From Nitrosospira sp. (GTDB lineage Bacteria; Pseudomonadota; Gammaproteobacteria; Burkholderiales; Nitrosomonadaceae), in contig JACDGV010000028.1 of the NCBI GenBank assembly GCA_013821425.1, forward strand, positions 1-32,580: a stretch of 32,580 nt of DNA, read 5' to 3'. Below are positions 5,644-13,172 of this stretch, piece after piece; within the stretch, counting starts at the first letter, position 1; every line of letters starts with the position of its first letter. The position numbers and the translations under genes are program-made. Under the pieces are notes generated by a model. It was not told the DNA's origin, did no database searches, and was given only the letters and a program-made list of their open reading frames with translations.

Positions 5644-5672
5644 TTGACGTTACGGGACATTTTGGTTACATT
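5644..5672 (+). promoter_or_regulatory. Promoter candidate of the mrfA-mrfB operon
   Basis: TTGACG (5644-5649) and TACATT (5667-5672) are separated by 17 bases, matching the sigma-70 -35 element at five of six positions and the -10 element at four of six. Transcription would start near 5679-5681, about 95 bases before the chosen start codon. The palindrome at 5681-5696 would then cover the start site. Confidence 0.5.
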
Positions 5673-5680
5673 GCACATCA

Positions 5681-5696
5681 CAGAACGAATGTTCTG
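5681..5696. promoter_or_regulatory. 16-bp perfect palindrome, operator candidate
   Basis: CAGAACGAATGTTCTG has six-base arms around GAAT. The core GAAC-N4-GTTC equals the core of the Bacillus LexA (DinR) box, not the CTGT-N8-ACAG box usual in beta- and gammaproteobacteria. It sits at the predicted transcription start of a DNA-repair-like operon, where a repressor would act. Binding by any regulator is inference. Confidence 0.45.
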
Positions 5697-5772
5697 GGTT
5701 GTGTAAAACGACCAGTGGACCAGTTCGCGCAGAGGGTGCGTGGCCTGGCGGAATTCCGTATCAGGAGCGAAC

Positions 5773-8274
5773 TTGAACGATCTGGTGGAACTCGCCCGGG
5801 AGCGGGGCGTTGTTGTGGCGGAGCCTGGCAGTGTGAGGGATCTGGTGCCCGCGCTCAAACGCCGTCACGCCCGGCGTATCACGGGTGAGCTTGTTATCCC
5901 GGCGCGCGCGGCTCGCCATGCCGCGTTCCCGGCCGAACTTGATTCCCGCATTGCGGAAGGTCTGGTACAGCGAGGCATTACGCAGCTCTACAGCCATCAG
6001 CGCGAAGCGTGGGATTACATCACGCAGGGCGAGCATGTTGTCATCGTCACGCCTACGGCATCCGGCAAGACGCTTTGCTACAACCTGCCGGTGATCCAGT
6101 CGGCCATACAGGACCGCTCGAAAGCGCTCTATCTTTTTCCCACCAAGGCGCTGGCCCAGGATCAGGTAACGGAGCTGCTGGAGCTCAACCAGGCGGGAAA
6201 TCTTGGCGTCCGGGCTTACACCTTCGATGGCGACACACCGGGCGATGCGCGTAAAGCGGTGCGGACGCACGGGGACATCGTCATCTCCAACCCGGACATG
6301 CTGCATCAGGCTATCCTGCCGCATCACACCAAATGGGCGCAGTTCTTCGAGAACCTGAAATTCGTGGTCATAGACGAGATGCATACCTACCGGGGCGTGT
6401 TCGGTTCTCATGTCGCCAACGTCATCCGCCGCCTGAACCGTGTCTGCGCCTTCTATGGAGTTAGACCCACCTATATTTTCTGCTCGGCGACAATCGCCAA
6501 TCCGGGCCAGCTCGCCAGCGGGCTTCTCGGGGCTCCGGTCGCGGTGATAGACCAGTCCGGGGCTCCGGCGGGCGAGAAGCACCTGCTGTTCTGGAATCCC
6601 CCGCTGATCAACGCCGACCTCGGGCTGCGCGCCTCTGCCCGCTCGCAGACCATGCGCATTGCCCGCAGCGCCATCAAGGCGGGACTGAAAACCATTGTGT
6701 TCGCCAATACCCGGCTTATGGTGGAAGTGCTGACCAAGTACCTGAAGGATGTGTTCGACAGCGATCCGCGACAGGCTCCGCGCGTTGCCGCTTATCGCGG
6801 CGGCTACCTGCCCACGGAACGGCGCGACACCGCCACCCGGCTGCGCGGCGGGCGGCTCGATTGCGTGGTGGCAACCAATGCGCTGGAGCTGGGAGTCGAT
6901 ATCGGCGCGCTGGACGTGTGCCTGCTCAATGGCTTTCCCGGCACCATTGCGGGCACATGGCAACGGCTGGGCCGGGCAGGGCGGCGCAACCGGCCTGCAC
7001 TGGGGGTGCTGATCGCCACCAGCGACCCGCTGGACCAATACATTATTCGCAACCCCGAATTCTTCACTGGAGCATCGCCCGAACGCGGATGCATCGATCC
7101 CGACCAGTTGCTGATCCTGATGGATCATATCCGCTGTGCTGCGTTTGAACTGCCGTTTCAGGACGACGAGCGCTTTGGCAAGGAGCCGCTGGCCGAGATG
7201 CTCGGTTACCTGGAAGCGCAGGGCTTGCTGCACCACGAGGCGAAGCGGTGGCACTGGATGGCGGACAGCTATCCCGCCAGCAGTGTCAGCCTGCGCTCGG
7301 TTGCGGACGGTAATTTTGTGGTGGTGGATGTGACCGGCGGCAAGCAGGACATCATTGCTGAAGTCGATTATTCCAGCGCCGCATTCACCCTGTACGAGGG
7401 GGCGATCTACCTCATCCAGGCGAACCCGTGGCAAGTGGAGAAGCTGGACTGGGAAGGGCGCAAGGCCTTTGTGACCCGGACGCGGGCCGATTATTATACC
7501 GACGCCATAGACTATACCCGGCTCAAGATCCTGGACTGCTTTGAAGAAGACAACCAGGAAGACAAATCGGACAAGGGCGAAGGCGAGCAGGCCAGGCAAC
7601 CGAATGGACCCGGCGGGCTGTGCAGCCGTGGCGAAGTGCACGTGGTGCGCCGTGTGGCAGGATACAAGAAGATACGCTACTACACTCACGAAAACGTGGG
7701 GTACGGCAAGGTCAACCTGCCGGACCACGAGATGCATACCACGGCGGTATGGTGGCAAGTGAGTCCGGATGCGCTGGAAGCCGCGTTTCACTCGCGCTGG
7801 CAGGCGCTGGACGGCTTCCTCGGCGCGGCGTACGCCCTGCATCACGTTGCGGCCTTGTTGACGCTGTCGGAACGGCATGATCTCGGAAGAGCAGTAGGCG
7901 ATGGCGGGGGAACCTGGTTTGCCGGCATGGACCAGAACGGCCGGGGGAATCCCAAAGACATATCCGGCGAAACGGTTGAGATCAATGACAGGCAATTCGT
8001 TCCCACCGTTTTCCTGTATGACAACTACGCGGGGGGCATCGGGCTTTCCACGCCGCTATTCGACCTGCGCCAAGAAATTGTTTCAAGGACAATTGAGCTG
8101 GTGGGGGACTGCGGCTGCCAGTCCGGCTGCCCCTCATGCGTCGGCCCGGTCCTTGCCTCGGATGAGAGTTTGGGCTATGCACCGAAGCAAGCCGCCCTGG
8201 CCGTCCTGGACCTGATCTCGCAACGGGGCGGGAGCCCCGGTCAAGCCCGCACACTGGATGCGGAGATGCCATGA
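5773..8274 (+). CDS. mrfA: MrfA/YprA-like DEAD/DEAH-box DNA repair helicase
   Basis: This superfamily 2 helicase has 833 residues from TTG at 5773, chosen because AGGAG lies five bases upstream. A GTG at 5740 is in frame but its purine tract is too close. Walker A TASGKT is at residues 95-100, the DEMH box at 201-204, and motif VI QRLGRAGR at 397-404. Long stretches such as VTPTASGKTLCYNLPV and NPDMLHQAILPHHTKW agree with B. subtilis YprA as I remember it. The C-terminal DUF1998 region carries C780, C782, C786 and C789, the Zn-type cluster of this family. In Bacillus, MrfA acts with MrfB in repair of mitomycin C lesions. Here it overlaps the mrfB-like gene by ATGA. Residues about 600-625 are a charged insert. 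Confidence 0.9.
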   Translation: MNDLVELARERGVVVAEPGSVRDLVPALKRRHARRITGELVIPARAARHAAFPAELDSRIAEGLVQRGITQLYSHQREAWDYITQGEHVVIVTPTASGKTLCYNLPVIQSAIQDRSKALYLFPTKALAQDQVTELLELNQAGNLGVRAYTFDGDTPGDARKAVRTHGDIVISNPDMLHQAILPHHTKWAQFFENLKFVVIDEMHTYRGVFGSHVANVIRRLNRVCAFYGVRPTYIFCSATIANPGQLASGLLGAPVAVIDQSGAPAGEKHLLFWNPPLINADLGLRASARSQTMRIARSAIKAGLKTIVFANTRLMVEVLTKYLKDVFDSDPRQAPRVAAYRGGYLPTERRDTATRLRGGRLDCVVATNALELGVDIGALDVCLLNGFPGTIAGTWQRLGRAGRRNRPALGVLIATSDPLDQYIIRNPEFFTGASPERGCIDPDQLLILMDHIRCAAFELPFQDDERFGKEPLAEMLGYLEAQGLLHHEAKRWHWMADSYPASSVSLRSVADGNFVVVDVTGGKQDIIAEVDYSSAAFTLYEGAIYLIQANPWQVEKLDWEGRKAFVTRTRADYYTDAIDYTRLKILDCFEEDNQEDKSDKGEGEQARQPNGPGGLCSRGEVHVVRRVAGYKKIRYYTHENVGYGKVNLPDHEMHTTAVWWQVSPDALEAAFHSRWQALDGFLGAAYALHHVAALLTLSERHDLGRAVGDGGGTWFAGMDQNGRGNPKDISGETVEINDRQFVPTVFLYDNYAGGIGLSTPLFDLRQEIVSRTIELVGDCGCQSGCPSCVGPVLASDESLGYAPKQAALAVLDLISQRGGSPGQARTLDAEMP

Positions 8275-9674
8275 CCTTGGCCCAGCGTCTGGCCCTGCTC
8301 AAGGGCGACAAGGCTGCCAGAGGCGGAGAGGGGCAAAAGAGCGTGCCTCAACCTCAGGTCGGCAGCCCGTCCAACGGCGGGGCAGGCGGAGCGGTCAATG
8401 CGCCTACTGGGCTAAATGGGCTGAACGCGGCAAGGGCGCCGCATGAGCCCGCCGGGCCGGTTTCTCCGATTTCCCCGATTCCCTCGATGCCTTTGAACGT
8501 TCGCCTGCAGCGCCTCGGCAGCCTTGGGGGCAGCGGCAATTCCCGCAATCCGGCCACGCGGGCGAAGCGCATGGATGCCGAAGTTGCGGCCCGCCTGCGC
8601 GGGGAAGTCGCCGCGCCGGGCGTGATCCAGGTGAGCCAGACGATTCCCCTTGCTAGCCGGCATGGCAAGGTTGCGTTTTCCGCCCTGGCCGGTGTTTCGC
8701 TCGGGGTCCTCGGCTTGCCTCACCAGGCAGCGGAACCACCGCTGGATGGGTTGCTGTTTCTGGATACCGAAACCACCGGCCTTGCCGGTGGCACCGGCAC
8801 TTTGCCATTCATGGTGTGTCTGGCGCGAATTCAGGGGGATCGCTTGCAGCTGGCGCAATGGATTCTGACCGGGTTCGCGGGGGAGGGTGCATTGCTGGAG
8901 ATAGTCTCTGGCTGGATCGAGCCCGCATCCCGGCTGGTTTCCTACAATGGCAAGAGCTTCGATGTGCCGCTTCTTGCCACGCGCTACCGGCTGGCGCGAC
9001 GGACGGATCCGTTTACCGATAAGGGTCATATCGATCTGCTGCATCTTACCCGCCGCGCCTGCGGGCAAGGTTGGGAAGATTGCCGCTTGCAGACGGCAGA
9101 GCAACGGCTGCTGGGATTCATCCGGGAGAACGATTTCCCCAGCTATCTCATCCCCCAGGCCTGGGGCGACTTTGTGAGGGGCGGCGGCACGGAATCGTTA
9201 TGCGCCATTGCCGAACACAACCGGCTCGATGTGCTGTCGCTGGCGGCGCTGCTGGCAATGCTTGCCAGAATCTATGCGGAACCCGGCCATGAAGCAGCGG
9301 ATGCCTTCCGGATCGCGCAGGTTCACGCCCGTCGGGGCCACCCGCAGCATGCCATCGAGCATCTAAGCAGTGCCAGCCGTCGGAGTGTCTTGGATGAGGC
9401 GGGGCTTTTATTCCTGGCGAGATTGCACCGGCTTCAACGGCAGGAGGAAAAGGCACTCGCCATCTGGCACCAGCTCAGGGAGAACAGCTGTATTGCCGGG
9501 ATTGAAGCCCTGGCCAAATACCATGAGCATGTGACGCGCGAGCTGGAGGCTGCGCTCGAACTCGCGGACGAATTGTCACGGCTGGAACCGGAGAACCAAC
9601 TCCATAACAAGCGCCAGGGGCGACTCCGCCGGCGGCTGGAAAAGCTGCAGGTAAAGAACAGCCCGCTTTCGTAG
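8271..9674 (+). CDS. mrfB: MrfB/YprB-like DEDD exonuclease with C-terminal helical repeats
   Basis: The 467-residue product starts inside the helicase stop (ATGA at 8271-8274), so the two are translationally coupled. Residues 1-130 are low-complexity and rich in Pro, Gly and Ala. An RNase H-like exonuclease domain follows: LLFLDTETTGLAGGTG with D165 and E167, SYNGKSFDVPLLATRY with D231, HIDLLHL with D255, and EHNRLDVLSL with H316 and D320. These fit exo motifs I to III of DEDD nucleases. Residues about 340-460 look like TPR-type helical repeats (FRIAQVHARRGHPQHAIEHL), also a feature of YprB. By family it is the nuclease partner of the MrfA helicase in excision of DNA lesions. The long N-terminal linker is the main departure from the Bacillus protein. 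Confidence 0.87.
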   Translation: MTLAQRLALLKGDKAARGGEGQKSVPQPQVGSPSNGGAGGAVNAPTGLNGLNAARAPHEPAGPVSPISPIPSMPLNVRLQRLGSLGGSGNSRNPATRAKRMDAEVAARLRGEVAAPGVIQVSQTIPLASRHGKVAFSALAGVSLGVLGLPHQAAEPPLDGLLFLDTETTGLAGGTGTLPFMVCLARIQGDRLQLAQWILTGFAGEGALLEIVSGWIEPASRLVSYNGKSFDVPLLATRYRLARRTDPFTDKGHIDLLHLTRRACGQGWEDCRLQTAEQRLLGFIRENDFPSYLIPQAWGDFVRGGGTESLCAIAEHNRLDVLSLAALLAMLARIYAEPGHEAADAFRIAQVHARRGHPQHAIEHLSSASRRSVLDEAGLLFLARLHRLQRQEEKALAIWHQLRENSCIAGIEALAKYHEHVTRELEAALELADELSRLEPENQLHNKRQGRLRRRLEKLQVKNSPLS

Positions 9675-9725: not shown

Positions 9726-10283
9726 TCACTCGGGATCATCCTGCGGCTCCACCGGAGGAACCTGCTCCCATCCATCCGGACATTCCTGCACTTGGGGGTA
9801 GTAACCCTCCGATGCCCGGCAATAATGCCAATAGCTGGATTGTGGCGCGGGAGCAGGTTGCGCGGTGTCACCCCGTTGAATGTATACCGGCGGCGGAGCG
9901 GGCTGGACGACTCTCGGTGGATAACCGTAATAAGGGGACGGATAATAAGGGGCGCCGAAGCCGAAACCGAAAGTAGGCCCCCATCCCGGTCCCCATCCCG
10001 GTCCCCAACCCCATCCGCCATAGTGGTGATGATGCTGGCCTCTTCCGTGCCTGTGTCCGCGATCGTGCCCATCTTTATCCCCGTCATCGCCCCCATCGTG
10101 CTCTTCCCCTTCGCCGCCATCCTCGCCGTCTTCATCAAACCCGCCGTCATCGCCGCCGCCGTCGAACCCGCCGTCATCCCCTCCTCCGTCATCGCCATCG
10201 AACGCCCATCCGGGGCCGGTAGCAACAAGTCCCAGCAGGGCAGCAAAAAAGCAGGCAAGTCCCGATGATCTGATTCTTTTCAC
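9726..10283 (-). CDS. Secreted Asp/Gly-, His- and Trp/Gly-rich repeat protein
   Basis: I start this 185-residue protein at GTG 10283, where GGAGAGG lies six bases upstream, because MKRIRSSGLACFFAALLGLV then ATGPGWA is a standard signal peptide. The longer in-frame opening adds over 100 residues unlike a protein. After cleavage near residue 27 come three blocks. Residues 29-75 are Asp/Gly/Glu-rich (DDGG repeats), 73-88 are His-rich with HHHH at 84-87, and 89-103 are GWGPGWGPGWGP. A Pro/Tyr-rich linker then leads to a two-cysteine C-terminal motif, YWHYCRASEGYYPQVQECPD. That tail is shared by many exported betaproteobacterial proteins. The acidic and His blocks suggest metal binding at the cell surface, which is inference. 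Confidence 0.75.
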   Translation of the reverse strand: MKRIRSSGLACFFAALLGLVATGPGWAFDGDDGGGDDGGFDGGGDDGGFDEDGEDGGEGEEHDGGDDGDKDGHDRGHRHGRGQHHHHYGGWGWGPGWGPGWGPTFGFGFGAPYYPSPYYGYPPRVVQPAPPPVYIQRGDTAQPAPAPQSSYWHYCRASEGYYPQVQECPDGWEQVPPVEPQDDPE

Positions 10284-10659
10284 GTTGCCTCTCCAGTCGT
10301 GAGGGATGTCCAGTGCGATTGCCGAGATTGCTAAGACAGGCAGAGGATTGGAAAATTCTATTCCTGCACTAAATTCGGGGGGGTGCGCGGGGACCTGCCG
10401 TTGATTGCACAGCCCTGCATGGAAGGGTGCCCCGTCGTCTTCGGGGGACGCAACTCGTACTGAGTCCCTCACCATGCTTGCGCTCAACGGTACGAAGGCA
10501 AGGCTTCGAGACAGGCAATCAGGAATATTGGTAAATCGTACTAGCACCTTCGTCCAATGGCGGAACTGGCTGAAATCCGTAAGATGCAATCCTAGGAAGT
10601 GGGCTGCGGATGTCCACCCGTCTCGACGCCACCATCATTTTTTTACCTTTTAGGTTGCC
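10284..10659. other. Intergenic stretch between divergent genes
   Basis: This 376-base gap separates the Gly/Asp-rich protein gene (reverse) from the permease gene (forward), so both promoters should lie here. I could not single out convincing -35/-10 pairs. The open frames are short and look non-coding. Confidence 0.5.
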
Positions 10660-11715
10660 ATGAATTCCCCGGAGCTACAGCAAAAAGCTTTCCTGCTCCT
10701 GTTGATAGCCGTGTCCCTGGCATTTGTCTGGATCCTGCTGCCATTCTACGGCGCAGTGTTCTGGGGCGCCGTTCTCGCCATTATCTTTACGCCTTTCTAC
10801 CGGCGCTTGCTGGTCACCATGCACAAGCGTCAAAACCTGGCTGCATTCACCACGTTGTTGCTCTGCGTGGTCATGGTAATACTTCCGGTTACTCTTTTAT
10901 CGCTTTCGCTGCTGCAGGAGGGACAAGCCTTTTACCAGAAAGTCCAGTCGGGAGAGCTCCACTTTGGAGCCTATTTCCAGCAGGCCATTAGTATCTTGCC
11001 CCAGTGGATGGTGCATTTCCTCGGCAGCGTCGGGTTGGCAAATTTTGCGGAACTAAAGGATACGTTATCAAACGGTGCCGCAAAGGAAAGCCAGTTCATC
11101 GCGGCCGAAGGGATCAGGATTGGGCAGAATACGTTCGAGTTCATGATCAGCTTCGCCATCATGCTGTATCTGCTTTTCTTCCTGTTGCGAGACGGCGGTC
11201 TTTTGTTCGAGAGAATAAGGGGAGCAATTCCCCTTAGCCCTGAACACAAGCGGCACCTGTTCGACAAGTTCGCCACGGTCGTCCGTGCCACTGTCAAGGG
11301 CAACCTTGTCATCGCCGCCCTGCAGGGCACGTTAGGGGGGTTGATATTCTGGTTTCTCGGTATTCCGGGGGCAGTGTTATGGGGAACCGTAATGGCGTTC
11401 CTTTCGCTGGTTCCCGCTATCGGGGCAGCATTGATCTGGGCGCCAGTGGCGTTCTATTTCCTGCTTACAGGCGCTCTCCAGGAAGGCGTGACACTGATCC
11501 TCTTTGGCGTGCTCGTGATCGGACTGGTCGATAACATCCTGCGGCCCATACTTGTGGGTAACGACACGCAGATTCCGGATTACGTGATTTTAATCTCAAC
11601 GCTTGGGGGGATGGTTCTCTTCGGCATCACGGGGTTCGTCATTGGTCCGGTGATCGCCGCATTGTTCATTGCAGCGTGGGATCTCTTTGCTTCCTCCAGG
11701 CAGGTGGAACGATGA
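10660..11715 (+). CDS. AI-2E/PerM-family membrane permease
   Basis: The 351-residue polytopic protein opens with AFLLLLIAVSLAFVWILLPF and has about eight hydrophobic spans. It includes the C-terminal hallmarks of the AI-2E (TqsA/PerM/YdiK) family: GIPGAVLWGTVMAFLSLVPA, then IGLVDNILRPILVGNDTQIP and ISTLGGMVLFGITGFVIGPV. Members export small solutes; some act on autoinducer-2 or as Na+/H+ antiporters, so the substrate is not predictable. The loop around residues 120-150 is soluble. The ATG has only a weak AGG upstream. Its stop overlaps the start of the phospholipase-D lipoprotein gene (ATGA at 11712-11715), indicating co-translation and perhaps a shared envelope role. Confidence 0.9.
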   Translation: MNSPELQQKAFLLLLIAVSLAFVWILLPFYGAVFWGAVLAIIFTPFYRRLLVTMHKRQNLAAFTTLLLCVVMVILPVTLLSLSLLQEGQAFYQKVQSGELHFGAYFQQAISILPQWMVHFLGSVGLANFAELKDTLSNGAAKESQFIAAEGIRIGQNTFEFMISFAIMLYLLFFLLRDGGLLFERIRGAIPLSPEHKRHLFDKFATVVRATVKGNLVIAALQGTLGGLIFWFLGIPGAVLWGTVMAFLSLVPAIGAALIWAPVAFYFLLTGALQEGVTLILFGVLVIGLVDNILRPILVGNDTQIPDYVILISTLGGMVLFGITGFVIGPVIAALFIAAWDLFASSRQVER

Positions 11716-13172
11716 CAGGCAGAACGCTCGAGGCCATGAATCATCTTTCCTTGAATACCGATCCGGCTCTCCCTTGCGCCATTCCTGCGCGCGTGGCCGC
11801 GAAGTTGAACCGCATGGCGGGAAAATACGCAATAGCGGTCCTTGCCGTGGTGCTGGCCGGCTGTGGTTCGCTGCCAATGCCCGATAGGGCGAAACTCGCG
11901 AATCCTGTCGTACAGATGGAGGGCTCGCAGGGAACGCTTTCTACCGCCCGAAGCGCGCGCATTCTGGAACGGCGTGAAACCGGCAGCGTCGAGACCAGTA
12001 TTTTTACCAGGCACCTCAAGGATATGGAGGGCATAGCCGGCAGCCCGCTGGTGACAGGCAACAAAGTCACGCTGCTGCTTGACGGCCCCGTCACCTACCA
12101 ATCGATGTATGACGCGATACAAGGCGCCAAAGACAGTATCAACATGGAAACCTATAATATCGAAGATGACGAGGTTGGACGACGCTTCGCCGAGGCCTTG
12201 ATCGAGAAGCAAAAAAAAGGTGTGCAGGTCAATTTCATATACGATAGCGTGGGATCGGGCAATACCCCCGGAGCATTCTTCAAGTCTTTGGCGGATAGTG
12301 GCGTCAATGTCCTTGAGTTCAATCCCATTAATCCCCTGCTACTTCGGAAGAAGTGGGAGGCGGGCCGTGACCACCGCAAGTTGCTGGTCGTTGATGGAAA
12401 GATCGCCTTTCTCGGCGGGGTAAACATTAACAGTGTATATTCCAGCGGCTCATTCAGGTCACAGCCGCGTACCAGGGGCACGCAACCGTGGCGCGACACC
12501 CATTTGCGTGTTGAAGGGCCCGTCGTGGCGGAATTCCAGCAATTGTTTCTGGCCACCTGGCAGAAGCAGAAGGGTAAACAGCTAAACACAGAGTCATTTT
12601 TTCCCAAACAGGAGAGCAGGGGCAGCGCCCTGGTTCGTGCCATCGGCAGTTCGCCCGGCGAGCCCTACAACGCCATATATGTGACGCTCCTGTCCGCCAT
12701 TGATAGCGCTGAAACCTATGCCTACGTTACCACCGCATACTTTGTGCCCGACGAACGTTTACTGGCTGCGTTAAAAGGTGCCGCCCGGCGTGATGTCGAT
12801 GTGCGGCTGCTGTTGCCGGACAAGACGGATTGGAATCTGGTGTCTCATGCGTCGCACTCCTACTACGACGAATTACTAAGTTCCGGGGTCAAGATTTATG
12901 AGCGCCAGGAAGCCTTGTTGCATGCCAAAACCGCGCTTATCGACGGGGTATGGACTACAATAGGCTCGACAAATCTTGACTGGCTTAGCCTGGCCTATAA
13001 TCAGGAAATCAACGCCGTCATTCTTGGGCAAGAGTTCGGCGCCGAGATGAAGGCCATGCTCGACAAGGACATTGAATCTTCCCGGCGTATCACGCTTGAA
13101 CAGTGGCGGCAGCGTTCGATTGTGATGCGTTTAAAAGAATTGGGTGCACGGTTATTAGCTCGGCTGCTTTAA
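11712..13172 (+). CDS. Phospholipase-D-superfamily cardiolipin synthase-like lipoprotein
   Basis: From the ATG overlapping the upstream stop the product has 486 residues. A second ATG at 11814 gives MAGKYAIAVLAVVLAGCGSL, a perfect lipoprotein signal with lipobox LAGC, so either initiation occurs there or the signal is internal. Two HKD motifs are complete: H221, K223 and D228 in HRKLLVVDGKIAFLGGVNI, and H404, K406 and D411 in HAKTALIDGVWTTIGSTNLD. These form the shared active site of cardiolipin synthases and phospholipases D, which exchange phosphatidyl groups. ClsB/ClsC-type cardiolipin synthesis or phospholipid turnover at the membrane is most likely. Lipidation is unusual for Cls enzymes but known for PLD-family exported proteins. 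Confidence 0.87.
   Translation: MTGRTLEAMNHLSLNTDPALPCAIPARVAAKLNRMAGKYAIAVLAVVLAGCGSLPMPDRAKLANPVVQMEGSQGTLSTARSARILERRETGSVETSIFTRHLKDMEGIAGSPLVTGNKVTLLLDGPVTYQSMYDAIQGAKDSINMETYNIEDDEVGRRFAEALIEKQKKGVQVNFIYDSVGSGNTPGAFFKSLADSGVNVLEFNPINPLLLRKKWEAGRDHRKLLVVDGKIAFLGGVNINSVYSSGSFRSQPRTRGTQPWRDTHLRVEGPVVAEFQQLFLATWQKQKGKQLNTESFFPKQESRGSALVRAIGSSPGEPYNAIYVTLLSAIDSAETYAYVTTAYFVPDERLLAALKGAARRDVDVRLLLPDKTDWNLVSHASHSYYDELLSSGVKIYERQEALLHAKTALIDGVWTTIGSTNLDWLSLAYNQEINAVILGQEFGAEMKAMLDKDIESSRRITLEQWRQRSIVMRLKELGARLLARLL

Follow-up and report, generated by a model that had tools for sequence, protein, structure and literature searches.

A LexA-type palindrome at the mrfAB operon of Nitrosospira suggests damage control of a helicase-exonuclease pair

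What controls the mrfAB genes in bacteria other than Bacillus subtilis? The question is raised by a contig of 32,580 nucleotides (the window) from the 3.14 Mb genome of a Nitrosospira-like bacterium, an ammonia oxidiser of soil. It encodes a helicase and an exonuclease whose similarity to YprA/MrfA and MrfB is far beyond chance; we confirmed that these are a true mrfAB pair and that both open reading frames are intact. Just upstream, at 5681–5696, lies a LexA-type palindrome that was absent from the first-pass annotation of this DNA. We propose that the window contains an mrfAB operon under DNA-damage (LexA-type) control, and, given its sequence, we consider this quite likely. Furthermore, mrfAB may be a damage-inducible excision pair in many Beta- and Gammaproteobacteria, where we infer LexA binding, induction, and mitomycin specificity. 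The gene pair itself is of a known kind; what seems unreported is its regulation, that is, the proposed wiring to LexA and, through LexA, to the mutasome.

Our main comparison set is the best 80 of 471 matches to the window helicase, which is biased towards Beta- and Gammaproteobacteria (upstream DNA is shorter than 600 bases at loci L044, L046, and L054). The closest named loci in this set are from Nitrosospira NpAV, Nsp2, and Nsp14, with 86% protein identity to the helicase. We also used two evenly drawn samples, with 229 genomes from the class (searched at E = 1e-100) and 299 genomes from the phylum (at E = 1e-80). Three of nine class-sample loci repeat loci of the main set (L144 = L015, L145 = L013, and L147 = L020), as do three of 12 phylum-sample loci (L188 = L016, L189 = L017, and L193 = L062).

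The helicase and the exonuclease

The gene mrfA (5773–8274, + strand) encodes a predicted 3'-5' helicase of the YprA/MrfA family, with 833 amino acids if translation begins at a TTG codon. The reading frame as listed begins at a GTG at 5740 and has 844 amino acids. The TTG seems the likelier start because a ribosome-binding site (AGGAG at 5763–5767, + strand) precedes it and because the aligned Nitrosospira sequences agree from the TTG onwards and diverge before it. In a search of the Protein Data Bank (PDB), the helicase matched YprA/MrfA from B. subtilis (6znp) at 704 bits, with long stretches of identity in the alignment. The next protein scored 84.6 bits, and Lhr- and RecQ-type proteins were far below YprA. 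Four Pfam domains are above their cut-offs: DEAD, Helicase_C, WHD_HRQ1, and MZB (PF09369 scores 54.2 bits against a cut-off of 24.2, and PF22982 scores 45.7 bits against 27). The zinc domain, MZB, has a cluster of four cysteines (C791, C793, C797, and C800 in the numbering of the 844-residue frame), with codons at 8110–8139 on the + strand. The second-closest known kin by profile are mycobacterial SftH-type helicases (NCBIfam TIGR03817, a model for SftH-like actinobacterial helicases), yet at 629 bits the window helicase is under that model's cut-off of 874.

The gene mrfB (8271–9674, + strand) begins with an ATG that overlaps the stop codon of mrfA (ATGA at 8271–8274). It encodes a predicted DEDDh 3'-5' exonuclease of 467 amino acids with a C-terminal helical (TPR-like) part. 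Its sole PDB match, up to E = 0.1, is MrfB from B. subtilis (8un9, E = 2.1e-30). All five DEDDh residues align: D165, E167, D231, H316, and D320 of the window protein, whose codons begin at 8763, 8769, 8961, 9216, and 9228 (span 8763–9230, + strand), stand for D107, E109, D172, H258, and D262 of the B. subtilis protein (as given in the consulted part of PMC11194089). The wedge leucine of B. subtilis MrfB aligns with L171. The first-pass annotation had described a YprA-type helicase with a four-cysteine C-terminus, translationally coupled to a YprB-like DEDD exonuclease, and had set these families against Lhr- and RecQ-type proteins; these results bear it out.

A structural model of MrfB (from 25 sequences; mean predicted local distance difference test score, or pLDDT, of 84.3) has a helix at residues 3–10, low confidence (pLDDT under 50) at residues 12–71, then the exonuclease core, and at the C-terminus seven helices. 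The best fold match in the PDB is again 8un9. Pfam's TPR_14 scores 14.8 bits, which is under its cut-off of 23.5. The N-terminal helix (8277–8300, + strand) is a candidate for a MrfA-docking motif. In an AlphaFold-Multimer model of the B. subtilis proteins, the N-terminus of MrfB wraps around the winged helix of MrfA, and its N-terminal helix docks in a cleft (PMC11194089, in part). Of 68 MrfB relatives with a placed start (another seven of the 75 had no start codon in range), 59 have a pattern of hydrophobic-x2-[RKS]-hydrophobic-x2-hydrophobic within their first 22 residues. A stricter motif, L..[RK]L..L[RKQ], is found in 46 of the 68, versus 14 of 1,156 control windows inside the same proteins. 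Because the non-window rows of our MrfB alignment were chosen for the strict motif, this choice partly explains why M1, L3, L7, and L10 are invariant in it. A short conserved motif ahead of a variable linker would fit a role in docking to MrfA. The MrfBs of Xanthomonadales have about 270–320 amino acids by our chosen starts and may be without the C-terminal repeats (L057, L058, L060, L061, L063, L064, L066–L068, L071, L073, and L076–L080).

As a gene pair, mrfAB is ordinary here, and its broad distribution is already published. A match to MrfB lies downstream of mrfA at 75 of the 80 loci, with an extrapolated start at most 340 bases past the mrfA stop; the other five run off their contigs within 240 bases of the mrfA match. 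It is an accessory pair: mrfAB is present in 7 of 23 Nitrosospira genomes, and the helicase in 11 of 229 class genomes and 14 of 299 phylum genomes (the window genome is counted in both). MrfB was not found in about 1.5 kb of downstream sequence at three of 12 phylum-sample loci (L190, L191, and L196) or, in the class sample, at L149. The class sample also includes a second, divergent MrfA-like helicase (L153, contig 2 of genome G146; 43% identical), and MrfB was not found in the available stretch of about 1.5 kb downstream of it.

We also considered that the pair might be a YprA-type antiphage system, akin to DISARM, Druantia, or ARMADA, instead of a repair system. PADLOC models do match the helicase core (the best is BrxHI, at 153 bits), and a protein with a PLD domain is encoded at 11676–13172. 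However, the helicase is by far nearest to MrfA, its partner is the MrfB exonuclease, a search of phage records gave no match at E = 1e-30, and mrfAB is linked to lexA and imuAB-dnaE2 (see below). Given the scores and the type of partner, we rejected a defence system, which seems very improbable. A defence gene set was not seen in a Pfam scan of the 20 other open reading frames of the window; PADLOC covered the two MrfAB proteins only. A phage- or plasmid-borne origin was also rejected, given the lack of phage matches at that threshold and given that all 42 matching plasmid records are under 60% identity (those listed are mostly haloarchaeal).

Two other reading frames overlap or neighbour the operon. 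A 744-residue open frame (5761–7995, – strand) is antisense to mrfA and is probably a shadow of codon bias. Adjoining mrfB is a gene for a Gly/Asp-rich, secreted-looking protein (9726–10589, – strand), and a similar gene is close to mrfB in L002 and L003; most other window neighbours that we tested were not found near mrfB in those two loci.

The promoter palindrome in Nitrosospira

A consensus scan places a sigma-70-type promoter for mrfAB at 5644–5672 (+ strand), with a -35-like hexamer (TTGACG, 5644–5649), a spacer of 17 nucleotides, and a -10-like hexamer (TACATT, 5667–5672). It matches at 9 of 12 positions; shuffled sequences give a mean of 0.2 such sites. We read 5644–5739 as promoter rather than coding sequence. 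The palindrome, CAGAACGAATGTTCTG (5681–5696, unstranded), begins eight bases past TACATT, at the expected transcription start. The conservation of its 14-mer, AGAACN4GTTCT, and the recurrence of this box before lexA2 (see below) suggest that it is an operator of LexA2 type.

Among the 23 Nitrosospira genomes that we examined, the exact 14-mer lies upstream of mrfA in all seven that have mrfAB. The distance from the first base of TTGAC[GT] to the start of the 14-mer is 37–38 nucleotides in all seven promoters, including that of G013, where the 14-mer lies 196 bases ahead of the aligned gene start. The DNA around the box diverges between genomes while the box persists.

The rest of the genome points to a LexA as the likely partner of this box. 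We counted 14-mers in four Nitrosospira genomes and found 3, 3, 2, and 4 sites (the reversed-pattern control gave 1, 4, 4, and 5). In each genome, one site is at mrfA and a further one or two directly precede a LexA-like gene (LexA2); just two sites, both in G003, are at neither. In the window genome, the other exact copies lie only before a lexA2-imuA-imuB-dnaE2 cassette (contig 51, L112), in which the LexA-like gene comes first and is preceded by AGAACN4GTTCT. (We named imuA, imuB, and dnaE2 by where their products lie and how they start, and by matches to cassettes elsewhere.) Like self-cleaving LexA proteins, this LexA2 contains an Ala-Gly pair and the motifs GDSM and FTLK. We also picked seven box-containing stretches from 7 of the 16 Nitrosospira genomes without mrfAB. 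Six of these sit just before a LexA2 that is 81–86% identical; L206 does not.

The window genome encodes a second complete LexA-like protein of 192 amino acids (contig 41:97942–98505; L087, 1434–2012). Its gene follows one with a partial match to the N-terminus of UvrC (contig 41:97263–97496), and none of the tested boxes was found at this locus. There are also three UmuD/UmuC-like pairs, named by eye, at L088, L089, and L090 (contigs 13, 5, and 58).

Intact uvrA, uvrB, and uvrC are encoded elsewhere in the genome, so the suggestion in the first-pass annotation that mrfAB is a second repair route fits. None of the three LexA-type boxes was found at the uvrA and uvrB loci. At the uvrC locus, an open frame upstream contains one unextended GAACN4GTTC, and one GAACN7GAAC lies at position 2908, beyond where the uvrC match begins. 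In Nitrosospira, mrfAB probably shares its regulation with translesion synthesis and not with UvrABC.

LexA genes and boxes beside mrfAB in relatives

A LexA-family gene is directly upstream of mrfAB at 30 of the 80 loci, divergent at 27 of them (L007 and L008 among them) and in the same direction at three. (Our LexA search profile was grown from two Nitrosospira LexA proteins.) At L008, L066, L071, and L079, a whole lexA-imuA-imuB-dnaE2 cassette adjoins mrfAB. The three same-direction cases are L005, L006, and L050, the nearest relatives outside Nitrosospira, which have lexA-mrfA on one strand and GAACN4GTTC before lexA. The count for GAACN4GTTC is six, which includes these three, as searched upstream of lexA, and L002, whose site is beyond the 220-base stretch.

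Another box, GTTCN7GTTC, is found upstream of mrfA at 24 of the 80 loci, where random windows drawn from these loci lead us to expect 1.18; at spacings of 6, 8, and 9, the counts are 1, 0, and 0. The 24 include L004, a Nitrosospira whose match overlaps its other box. Our motif list, with GTTCN7GTTC in it, was fixed before we examined the upstream sequences. Of these 24 loci, 22 have a linked lexA. GTTCN7GTTC is the SOS box of Caulobacter (Table 1 of PMC9578287, which also gives the E. coli box). Among 101 upstream stretches, a box of the E. coli type (at least 13 of 20 positions) is found only in L008, L033, and L042; the control rate is 9 in 8,000 windows. We found TTAGT..ACTAA, GTACN4GTGC, and GTTCN4GAAC upstream of mrfA at 0 of 80 loci each.

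The type of recognition helix in LexA goes with the type of box. The helix SRGS[LM]HK is found at all 22 lexA-linked GTTCN7GTTC loci, and also at L015, which lacks the box. SPNAV goes with CTGTN8ACAG (L008), and AKSWTH or an SK type goes with GAACN4GTTC (L050, L005, and L006); three Rhodanobacter have yet another type.

By eye, we noticed another palindrome, CTCAN5TGAG, so it is a post hoc motif. It is exact before mrfA at 24 of the 80 loci, versus 0.58 expected, and other spacings give 0 or 1. With at most one mismatch to TCTCAN5TGAGA, it is present at all 19 named Xanthomonadales loci (L057, L058, L060, L061, L063–L069, L071–L073, and L076–L080), a count that excludes L151, L192, L195, L197, and L199, which were assigned to the group after the motif was seen. 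CTCAN5TGAG is also upstream of mrfA at L010, L022, L025, L030, L046, L053–L055, L070, and L075. (L046 is from a metagenome-assembled genome, or MAG, titled Klebsiella pneumoniae; its mrfA groups with that of L070, a betaproteobacterial MAG, and the title is probably wrong.)

On the mrfA tree (from a quick search, with Shimodaira-Hasegawa-like approximate likelihood ratio test, or SH-aLRT, support only), the window falls in a group of seven with SH-aLRT support of 97, and all seven carry GAACN4GTTC. Four are Nitrosospira without an adjacent lexA, and three are the lexA-mrfA arrangements. Because the whole group has the box and only three members have the adjacent gene, the box seems either to predate the physical linkage or to have survived its loss. 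At minimum, the tree requires 15 changes of operator state and 13 of lexA adjacency. In Arhodomonas, Methylonatrum, L019, and L037, one LexA of 225–248 bits is encoded elsewhere in the genome and another, of 160–168 bits, is linked to mrfAB, as judged by coordinates; L008, L049, and L066 each have just one LexA. The two Aquisalimonas loci, L033 and L042, have one canonical LexA each (232–235 bits), unlinked to mrfAB, and an E. coli-type box at mrfA, whereas at the sister loci L028 and L047 lexA is linked and the box is GTTCN7GTTC. The absence of a linked lexA in L033 is weak because this genome is a MAG, and all these counts are from assemblies of uncertain completeness, several of them MAGs.

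In the class sample, of nine loci other than the window's own with visible upstream sequence, six have an adjacent lexA, six have GTTCN7GTTC, and seven have either; without the three repeats, these numbers are 3 of 6, 4 of 6, and 4 of 6.

Several observations weigh against LexA control. Only 35 of the 80 loci have a LexA-type box or an adjacent lexA; another 21 have just CTCAN5TGAG, and 24 have neither kind of sign (these 24 include five Xanthomonadales with a CTCAN5TGAG-type site at one mismatch, and also L042 with its E. coli-type box). A different regulator, or no regulator at all, may act at some or all of the loci with CTCAN5TGAG alone or with no sign. At the 12 phylum-sample loci, three of them repeats, we found neither an adjacent lexA nor any of the three LexA-type boxes. 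The Rhodanobacter box at mrfA differs, by eye, from the palindrome at the linked lexA promoter, and therefore adjacency to lexA alone is no proof of control by that LexA. Within the window genome, the contig-41 protein is closer to the LexAs of L005 and L006 (54 and 52% identity) than the contig-51 protein is (45 and 43%), so either could be the acting repressor. Finally, the 14-mer occurs 79 times on the forward pattern across the 23 Nitrosospira genomes, versus 87 for the reversed control, and the looser GAACN4GTTC occurs 48 times in the window genome, versus 83 for its reversed pattern. The numbers for the 14-mer are uninformative, and our case therefore rests on its place. The 48 versus 83 also led us to reject the idea that the box is merely abundant.

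Could MrfAB instead be a plain constitutive housekeeping system for adduct repair, with the palindrome at 5681–5696 incidental or bound by some other regulator? Membership in the MrfAB family, which is certain, would suit this, and so would the 45 of 80 loci without a LexA-type box or adjacent lexA and the lack of over-representation of GAACN4GTTC. However, this explanation does not account for why the distance from hexamer to box is kept in seven of seven genomes despite divergent surroundings, why the identical box is at the lexA2 promoter, or why lexA adjoins mrfAB so often. We consider constitutive expression unlikely.

A proposed role for mrfAB in the damage response

Under LexA-type control, we envision that in an undamaged cell the box at the mrfA start site would be occupied by a self-cleaving LexA2, whose gene is most likely that at the head of the imuA-imuB-dnaE2 cassette on contig 51. 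Upon damage, RecA filaments would trigger the self-cleavage of LexA2, and mrfAB and the mutagenesis cassette would be transcribed together. As in B. subtilis, MrfA (the 3'-5' helicase with the zinc domain) would open the DNA at a bulky adduct, and MrfB, tethered via its N-terminal helix, would degrade the lesion strand from 3' to 5'. The gap would be filled afterwards, and we speculate that ImuB and DnaE2 could do so.

The proteins have much in common with B. subtilis MrfAB (6znp and 8un9): a helicase with winged-helix and MZB domains, the DEDDh core, the aligned wedge leucine, C-terminal helices that may be repeats, and the order of helicase then nuclease. In B. subtilis, mrfAB is not known to belong to the LexA regulon. 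Unlike that system, the window operon lies behind a LexA-type palindrome. Also, the N-terminal linker of the window MrfB is longer, with its low-confidence stretch at residues 12–71, versus 32 unstructured residues that were removed from the B. subtilis protein (PMC11194089, in part). B. subtilis MrfAB is experimentally known as a mitomycin-specific pathway, with further partners left open, and neither "SOS" nor "LexA" appears in the main text of that article (PMC11194089). Complementation needs closely related alleles, according to a preprint. We did not find a link between LexA and mrfAB in searches of an open-access library, including passages of PMC12345164, PMC13192584, PMC1976550, PMC13388538, and PMC6051672.

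The box itself, GAACN4GTTC, is close to the LexA box of B. subtilis (Table 1 of PMC9578287). In P. putida, LexA2 heads and directly controls imuA-imuB-imuC (PMC3901139, in part). The window genome has such a cassette (dnaE2 being imuC), and unlike in P. putida, the palindrome of the cassette is also at the helicase-exonuclease operon.

A bolder form of our proposal is that many Beta- and Gammaproteobacteria have a LexA2 program with two arms: MrfAB, for inducible excision independent of UvrABC, and the ImuAB-DnaE2 mutasome. Upon damage, LexA2 would be released, MrfAB would digest the lesion strand and leave a gap, and the mutasome would fill it. This program would involve at least three types of LexA (with GAACN4GTTC, GTTCN7GTTC, and CTGTN8ACAG), and in Aquisalimonas, where we found no linked lexA, the canonical LexA seems to have taken over. 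We offer this form tentatively, as it is well short of an even bet.

There is a precedent for the gap-filling step: in non-dividing Caulobacter, ImuC reportedly acts in filling the gaps of nucleotide-excision intermediates (Joseph et al. 2021, cited in PMC9578287). Shared control with a translesion cassette would make the products of that cassette candidates for closing the gap left by MrfB. Because LexA is linked to mrfAB in several lineages, with different boxes, we suggest that selection keeps mrfAB damage-inducible there.

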